64,000 nt of DNA, taken from contig JAGPYM010000005.1 in the NCBI GenBank assembly GCA_020736575.1, forward strand, positions 620,001 to 684,000, read 5' to 3'. The stretch is from Thelonectria olida (Eukaryota; Ascomycota; Sordariomycetes; Hypocreales; Nectriaceae). The position numbers and the translations under genes are program-made. This document shows, piece by piece, positions 1,291-5,528 of this stretch; positions within the stretch are counted from its first letter, which is position 1; every line of letters starts with the position of its first letter. The notes beneath the pieces are model-generated. The model worked only from the letters and a program-made list of their open reading frames with translations, made no database searches and was not told the DNA's origin.

Positions 1291-1786
1291 GATGAGGGAT
1301 GTGTGTAAGCGCGGTAGTTGGAAGCAATGTCAAGGTATTATAGGACTGGAGTTCTCAGTAAGTGACCCGGGCGAAGGCGTAGATGTTTTGAGGTTGTGTG
1401 AAGCTGAATCGTTTGAACTTGGAAGGGATGGCTGAGGATACGTCTAACTCGACATCGTGCACTACAACATTATATATCATAATCGCAAGGTGTGTTCCTT
1501 ATGCCGGTGTCCTTGTGTCTTGCGATTGTTCTAGGAGCCATTGTATAATTGAACAAGCTACCAGTCGGAACAGCATATCTCAATCGAACAAAGAAAAAGA
1601 CACTGTCGACTTGAAGTTGCGTTGTCATTCGTTAGTTCATCAGAACACACGGAATCGCACTGTAAAATAAGAAGCCTGCCCTCGATCAACTCTGGAACAA
1701 TGAGGGAGGGAGATCAGCGAGCCGGAGCAACTGGGTATCCCATTAAGGGCGAAGATTCGTCGTGGGAAACGGCAAAAAAAGACGAT
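1291..1786. other. intergenic, promoter side of orphan ORF and tRNA terminator
   Basis: No credible protein gene. Positions 1774-1780 are seven A's on the plus strand, which read as a T7 run on the minus strand just past the tRNA-Phe 3' end. Confidence 0.5.
1774..1780 (-). terminator. Pol III T7 terminator of tRNA-Phe
   Basis: A run of seven T's on the minus strand starts 6 nt after the discriminator base of the tRNA-Phe gene. T4 or longer at this distance is the standard RNA polymerase III terminator. It supports the upstream tRNA being a live Pol III gene rather than a relic. Confidence 0.8.
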
Positions 1787-1917
1787 TGCGGTTTATGTGG
1801 ATCGAACACATGACCTTCAGATCTTCAGTCTGACGCTCTCTGTCAGTGAAGGTTAGTGATATGCTTCAAATGAGGCATTTGTTTGTTCGAAACGTACCCC
1901 AACTGAGCTAAACCCGC
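1787..1917 (-). tRNA. tRNA-Phe(GAA) split by a D-loop intron
   Basis: Minus strand: nt 1-20 lie at 1917-1898 and nt 21-73 at 1839-1787. Joined they form a canonical 73-nt tRNA. It has a 7-bp acceptor stem (one G-A mismatch at 5-68), D stem GCTC/GAGC, anticodon stem TCAGA/TCTGA, loop CTGAAGA with anticodon GAA, T stem ATGTG/CACAT and loop TTCGATC, discriminator A. The A box (TAGCTCAGTTGG) and B box (GTTCGATCC) are intact and a T7 terminator follows. The anticodon loop has no intron, although the usual tRNA intron sits at 37/38. Instead 58 nt (1897-1840) interrupt the D-loop between nt 20 and 21. No other cloverleaf fits, so the tRNA identity is secure; whether it is expressed is not shown. Confidence 0.93.
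1840..1897 (-). other. 58-nt spliceosomal-type intron inside tRNA-Phe D-loop
   Basis: On the minus strand the insert begins GTACGT, has CACTAAC about 12 nt before its end and ends CTGACAG. This is the pattern of the mRNA introns in this same window. Exact excision restores D-loop AGTTGGGA and the D stem. A tRNA-endonuclease intron would be at 37/38 with a bulge-helix-bulge, which this is not. A TTTCGAAC stretch near its 5' end resembles a B-box core. That it is spliced by the spliceosome is inference. Confidence 0.8.
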
Positions 1918-4567: not shown

Positions 4568-5528
4568 GAAAAGGACGTGTAATTAACGGAATGGCGTTGT
4601 ATTTGGGTTGACATCACGAGGACGGGGCTTATTCGGTCGCTTGAGATTGGGAACAGGTTACATAGGTCCAGCAACGGACAGGAATATCCATTGAAGAAGT
4701 CGTCAGTTATTACATACAAGCAAGTATTGGGAACAGGACTAAGTCGACTCCGGAAAAGCTCCATCTGATGATCTGATAAGTCCAGTGCACCGGCAACCAT
4801 GGCTTGATTACCCACTTACTAAAGATCTCAGGCGTGGTCTGATCGATCTCACGGAGCAATTCTTATCACTACGTACTCCAACCTGAAGATTCCGATTCGG
4901 GCCCAACCTAGTGCCAGATCCTTTCTCGATCCGGGGCATAACTAGCACTCGCCCTGTTCTTTGCCGTCTGGGGCAACGACATGGACAGGTGCCCAACTGC
5001 CTTGGAGGACGTCCATATGCTACGCTCCACATTGAGCATGGAGTGCCTGTTCGTACAGGACAGAATGCAGACTAGGATTTCATCTTGATTGGGACTTTCT
5101 CTTGCCACTGCAGTCCTATCCAGCAATCCCCGAGTTGCCTGTCCGTTGATCGCCCTTGCTGCGTGCCGTATCGTGCGAGTCATGTCAAACCACGTCTTTC
5201 TCAACTGCCGGAGCCGCTCAACCAATGAGACTCTAGCAGTGTCAGTCTCTAGTCAATTGGACCCTGCTCAGTTGCTTGTCTATGTCCAGACTGTGTGAGT
5301 TGTCAGTTTTCTTGCAGAGACTAACAAACCCGAGTCCTTCTAGTCGACCCTCCCCTCCTCCTCCTCCTCTCAACCAACCTACCTACCCTTGATCAAAATC
5401 TTCCGAAAGGCCTTCCCAGCTCATCGGGATTTTGCAAGGGACGGAGGAATTTTGCGGGTTTGTGGGTCGGAGATACGCGAGCTTTCGATCCCAAATTCCG
5501 ATCAGGCGGGCGGAAGGGAAGAGGGAGC

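Follow-up and report, generated by a model that had tools for sequence, protein, structure and literature searches.

The window analysed here, a stretch of 64,000 nt from a contig (C111) of the assembly of Thelonectria olida (Hypocreales, Nectriaceae), carries near one end a minus-strand tRNA-Phe(GAA) gene whose D-loop is interrupted by 58 nt bearing the signals of a spliceosomal intron. The features of this locus, in window coordinates, are the following:

1787..1917, minus strand: interrupted tRNA-Phe(GAA) gene, 131 nt (20 + 58 + 53), which ARAGORN recognises as tRNA-Phe after removal of the insert
1898..1917, minus strand: 5' exon, tRNA nt 1-20, the same in all seven tRNA-Phe genes found in the genome
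1899..1910, minus strand: A box TAGCTCAGTTGG, entirely within the 5' exon
1840..1897, minus strand: D-loop intron of spliceosomal type, 58 nt, GTACGT..CACTAAC..CAG
1892..1897, minus strand: donor GTACGT, fitting the GTNNGT present in all four interrupted copies
1852..1858, minus strand: branch-site sequence CACTAAC, with the presumed branch A at 1853; CTAAC in all four copies
1840..1856, minus strand: 17-nt intron tail, also present in the interrupted copies on contigs C79 and C35
1840..1842, minus strand: acceptor CAG, as in all four copies
1787..1839, minus strand: 3' exon, tRNA nt 21-73, with G57 lying within GTTCGATCC (A57 in each of the three intact copies)
1799..1807, minus strand: B box GTTCGATCC, 91 nt downstream of the A box
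1774..1780, minus strand: run of seven T, the presumed Pol III terminator

When the exons are joined without the 58 nt that follow nt 20, a 73-nt cloverleaf results that ARAGORN calls as tRNA-Phe(GAA), which confirms the tRNA-Phe gene with a D-loop insert of the original prediction; the intact A and B boxes and the T7 terminator that it described are likewise where they should be. Its statement that all stems are present holds for the cloverleaf as a whole, with the exception of a G5/A68 mismatch in the acceptor stem. This mismatch consists of the same two letters in all seven tRNA-Phe copies of the genome, intact ones included, and Neurospora tRNA-Phe has it as well. In its unspliced form the locus receives no ARAGORN call in the window, and Rfam at gathering scores gives no match in the window, while a lax Rfam search retrieves the 3' part of the gene alone (22.8 bits). 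By inspection the intron junction can be drawn in two registers, GT..AG or, one base leftward, GG..CA.

One protein encoded in the window matches a T. olida protein with 100% identity over 97% of the query, and for a second one the best named matches are Fusarium relatives at 85%. The whole assembly (52.5 Mb, 165 contigs) was searched for further copies in two ways, with the joined tRNA as a query and with a pattern for the anticodon arm, and both recover the identical seven tRNA-Phe genes, three of them intact and four interrupted. The nine matches of the joined-tRNA query comprise the three intact genes, four 3' parts spanning nt 20-73, one separate 5' part, which belongs to the gene on C35, and a place of 82% identity that ARAGORN calls tRNA-Cys; the anticodon-arm pattern gave no match in its control. 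One intact gene is found on C75 and two on C79. The interruption always falls between nt 20 and 21, with inserts of 58 nt on C111 (the window), 54 nt on C79, 54 nt on C86 and 53 nt on C35, and the exons of the four interrupted genes are identical over 73/73 nt. Their 500-nt flanks are unrelated, sharing only short matches of at most 27 nt, barring overlaps inside the cluster on C79. In that cluster (C79:491222-501221), three tRNA-Phe genes stand in tandem inside some 0.5 kb, in the order intact, interrupted, intact. That the insert is an assembly artefact, a possibility the original prediction had itself raised, is unlikely, because the inserts differ among the four loci, each on a contig of its own, and yet occupy one and the same site. 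With introns allowed in the anticodon loop, ARAGORN calls all three intact genes and none of the four interrupted ones, and since it misses all four here, other such genes may be overlooked.

The four inserts, 53-58 nt in length, share a constant set of signals. Their donors (GTACGT on C111, GTATGT on C79, GTGAGT on C86 and GTACGT on C35) all fit the fungal consensus GTNNGT, each contains a CTAAC branch site whose A lies 13, 13, 12 and 13 nt before the intron end, respectively, and all end in CAG, satisfying the acceptor YAG. When each insert was subjected to mononucleotide shuffling, donor, branch, distance and acceptor appeared together in 0, 0, 0 and 1 of 400,000 shuffles. The intron bodies align no better than chance would have it: for the six possible pairs, the fractions of 300 shuffles scoring as well were 0.46, 1.0, 0.09, 0.94, 0.55 and 0.21 (9-100%). 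A 17-nt tail from CTAAC onwards (CTAACCTTCACTGRCAG) nevertheless recurs, with a single change, in the introns of C111, C79 and C35, that of C86 being different at this place, and the introns are thus not four independent cases. Gene conversion entering from the 3' exon could maintain branch and acceptor, and either gene conversion or structure could account for the shared tail.

The tail exceeds the needs of splicing, and pairing between it and the anticodon arm of the 3' exon is possible. The predicted duplexes reach -15.8, -14.0 and -15.2 kcal/mol in the three introns that share it (1.2-2.6% of 500 tail shuffles being as good) and -10.8 kcal/mol in the C86 intron (11% of shuffles). A meaning for this pairing was considered and dropped, since one of seven control mRNA intron tails paired better (-16.8 kcal/mol, 0.2%).

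A comparison with the mRNA introns of the window places the inserts in familiar company. A strict intron scan found nine stretches in the window (mean over 20 Markov sequences, 2.3), whereas a loose scan returned 32 against a mean of 29.25 and thus no excess. The tRNA insert itself accounts for one of the nine. Of the remaining eight, seven give an open reading frame when their flanks are joined, the exception being a stretch at 5295 that is not established as an intron. Three of the seven joined frames presumably encode, judging by the C-terminus, ETF-QO, PABP and a universal stress protein, and four of the seven introns are supported by the open frame alone. These seven mRNA introns are 49-80 nt long with branch distances of 10-16 nt, ranges within which the tRNA introns fall (53-58 nt and 12-13 nt); as the strict scan required splice signals, these are shared by construction, and the independent part of the likeness consists of the lengths, the distances and the open joined frames. 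The resemblance to the mRNA introns of the window that had been noted at the outset therefore holds in length and branch distance. Fungal mRNA spliceosomal introns and the tRNA-Phe introns are alike in donor, branch, acceptor, length and branch distance; they differ in that the former reside in Pol II transcripts with a cap and a tail, whereas the latter would be removed from a Pol III transcript offering a 5' exon of 20 nt and a short leader. Four copies, divergent introns and constant signals strongly support a spliceosomal-type intron in a tRNA gene, and this part of the original interpretation stands.

Introns of nuclear tRNA genes are otherwise the business of the tRNA endonuclease (TSEN), removal being carried out by a protein endonuclease and a ligase according to PMC3400036 and PMC3978253. 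The four introns might accordingly be of that kind, with GT, CTAAC and AG present by coincidence. Both sorts sit in a nuclear tRNA gene and have to be removed for a working tRNA to arise, and anticodon-loop introns do occur in other tRNAs of this genome: a genome search with the Rfam tRNA model gave at least 61 matches (63 scored of 1484 candidates), and ARAGORN, which seeks introns in the anticodon loop only, called a tRNA at all 58 of the 61 places that were examined, 19 of them with such an intron. According to PMC3978253, nuclear tRNA introns lie exclusively at 37/38 and are BHB-like, the exceptions being Cyanidioschyzon merolae and a nucleomorph, that of Guillardia theta, which have introns outside 37/38 as well. 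In C. merolae such introns occur in the D arm: a tRNA-Ile intron at 12/13 is described in PMC9602550, and permuted tRNAs with introns, of which some lie in the D-loop, in PMC3978253. BHB formation is possible at the junctions of these permuted tRNAs, and the junction of one of them falls exactly at 20/21. The same text describes many G. theta introns as being without a defined BHB, and in what it says of C. merolae and G. theta no set of donor, branch and acceptor appears, unlike the situation in T. olida, where introns of 53-58 nt with spliceosomal signals lie at 20/21 and not at the 37/38 of TSEN. Moreover, the anticodon-loop introns placed by ARAGORN measure 10-36 nt.

Structure is of limited help in this matter. 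A four-pair BHB central helix between nt 15-18 and the intron end, with two or three G-U pairs, can be drawn in three of the four introns (four pairs of four on C111, C79 and C35, three on C86), in a test that discriminates poorly, as canonical introns with a known joined form (n = 3) have four (Asp), two (Lys) and three (Thr) of the four central pairs. None of the seven mRNA introns of the window reaches four (1-3 each), which speaks a little for TSEN; on the other side, the three introns with the full helix are those that share one tail. In a strict BHB test in the GT-AG register, the outer exon helix has one of four pairs in all four introns and the outer intron helix 1, 1, 2 and 1 of four, although skipping A14, which the strict test disallows, would by eye let the D stem take the place of the outer exon helix. 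Predicted folds of the precursors show no preference for the cloverleaf, with minima of -33.9 to -37.4 kcal/mol versus -24.1 to -28.4 kcal/mol with the cloverleaf pairs forced (z-scores -2.08, -1.80, -2.84 and -1.16, and -0.66 for the joined tRNA); folding is, however, a poor guide, because the joined tRNA itself gives -19.2 versus -18.2 kcal/mol with the cloverleaf forced. What an endonuclease intron leaves unexplained is the constancy of GTNNGT, CTAAC and CAG in diverged bodies. These signals, as read in the sequence, carry most of the argument, and on balance we regard a TSEN intron as very unlikely.

All seven tRNA-Phe genes have an A box in the 5' exon and a B box in the 3' exon, followed by a T-run 5-7 long (6-7 in the four interrupted genes) that starts at +7 to +10, and CAA occurs within 20 nt in the leaders of six of the seven, being absent from the interrupted copy on C79. 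The gap between the two boxes widens to 86-91 nt in the interrupted genes, a distance that TFIIIC tolerates. None of the four interrupted copies lacks an A box, a B box or a T-run, which supports their transcription by Pol III, as had been proposed from the window alone.

The three intact genes bear on how much the interrupted ones matter. With them present, the interrupted genes need not be essential, the cell may not depend on them, and selection on splicing could be weak. That other intact tRNA-Phe genes supply the cell, with only unspliced RNA or none coming from the interrupted locus, had been named beforehand as an outcome that would speak against the intron, and half of it is found, in that these genes exist. 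The interrupted copies could then be dead, an old insertion duplicated along with the gene and never spliced, and routine annotation lends them no support, given that ARAGORN calls none of the four. Yet at each of four places whose flanks and intron bodies show no likeness, the exons, both promoter boxes and the T-run have stayed intact, and a dead insert would be expected to have lost its signals too, which makes this explanation less probable still than the endonuclease intron. Alternatively, the copies may serve as TFIIIC-binding or chromatin-boundary elements, their RNA being irrelevant. Intact A and B boxes and the extra-TFIIIC loci of other fungi would agree with such a role; since sites of this type would presumably require neither an anticodon arm nor an acceptor stem, branch or splice sites, it is the explanation to which we give the least credence, bordering on none.

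A precedent for splicing of a Pol III RNA lies in the same genome. The U6 snRNA gene (C122:777140-777309, minus strand; the only match among 47 scored of 2792 candidates) is split after ACAGAGAAGAT by a 71-nt intron of spliceosomal type, with GTCAGT, GCTAAC and CACAG, inside which a B-box-like GTTCGAACC is located. A B box within the intron is likewise found in the U6 gene of S. pombe, and Rhodotorula-type yeasts have an mRNA-type intron in U6 snRNA. Like those described here, the S. pombe intron is short, of the GT-AG type and part of a Pol III gene; the difference is that U6 is part of the spliceosome and has its intron near the catalytic bases, whereas the host RNA in the T. olida case is a tRNA. 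It is that location which prompted the idea of reverse splicing, as set out in PMC10484740. Because the U6 gene of T. olida is split, it can yield U6 only if the spliceosome already acts on an RNA made by Pol III. The SRP RNA match, 302 nt for a 293-nt model, is too short to contain an insert of this kind. The sole 5.8S rRNA match (C133:1964649-1964779; 39 scored of 1534 candidates) is a degenerate-looking fragment of 52.7 bits, and no proper rDNA unit was matched in that search.

Taken together, these are very probably working spliceosomal introns in tRNA-Phe genes transcribed by Pol III, and we infer transcription, spliceosomal excision and use of the product in translation from DNA sequence. 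A U2-type (GT-AG) intron would sit between nt 20 and 21 of four genes that Pol III would read from the A and B boxes as far as the T-run; the spliceosome would find its signals in the precursor (the donor, the CTAAC branch site and CAG), the intron would leave as a lariat, and the resulting 73-nt tRNA-Phe would undergo the same end processing as the tRNA from the intact genes. The best reading of their history is that the introns were gained once or twice and retained while the gene copies dispersed; they may have arisen by reverse splicing of an mRNA intron, as the original prediction suggested. Base 57 is G in the interrupted genes (GTTCGATCC) and A in the intact ones (GTTCAATCC), so that, among the seven genes, G57 is a single-base marker of the product of splicing. 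The G57 tRNA-Phe isodecoder thus probably exists only by way of the spliceosome, which would link part of the tRNA supply to spliceosome activity and, together with U6, make two Pol III RNAs dependent on it. If this is true, one class of RNA can be a substrate of both splicing systems, and an RNA made by Pol III and folded as a tRNA is open to the same splicing as an mRNA. The four loci also offer a way to study how an intron persists in a tRNA while its body diverges. Text searches of open-access papers on tRNA introns and U6 introns brought up no nuclear tRNA with a spliceosomal intron.

Among the other tRNAs covered by joined-tRNA queries and by ARAGORN on the 58 places, no further D-loop split was found. 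The first set of queries gave at least 50 matches (40 scored of 45 candidates), one of them a 5' part only, and the second at least 45 (40 scored of 55 candidates), with splits at the anticodon loop. The second set included nine yeast tRNAs, of which Val matched and Ala, Glu, Gln, Gly-GCC, His, Trp, Tyr and Ser-AGA did not. A pattern for interrupted tRNAs, which requires CTAAC, A21 and C25 and which variants could therefore escape, gave seven matches (control 8), namely the four tRNA-Phe genes and three places not tRNA-like by eye; a near-exact pattern had no match in viral contigs. A tRNA-Ile copy (C78:1627380-1627560, minus strand) has an anticodon-loop intron and about 41 extra nt between anticodon stem and variable loop; these lack CTAAC and may fold back on themselves, and the gene is perhaps a dead copy. 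By eye, both tRNA-Ile and tRNA-Thr(CGT) also have copies that are truncated or degenerate.
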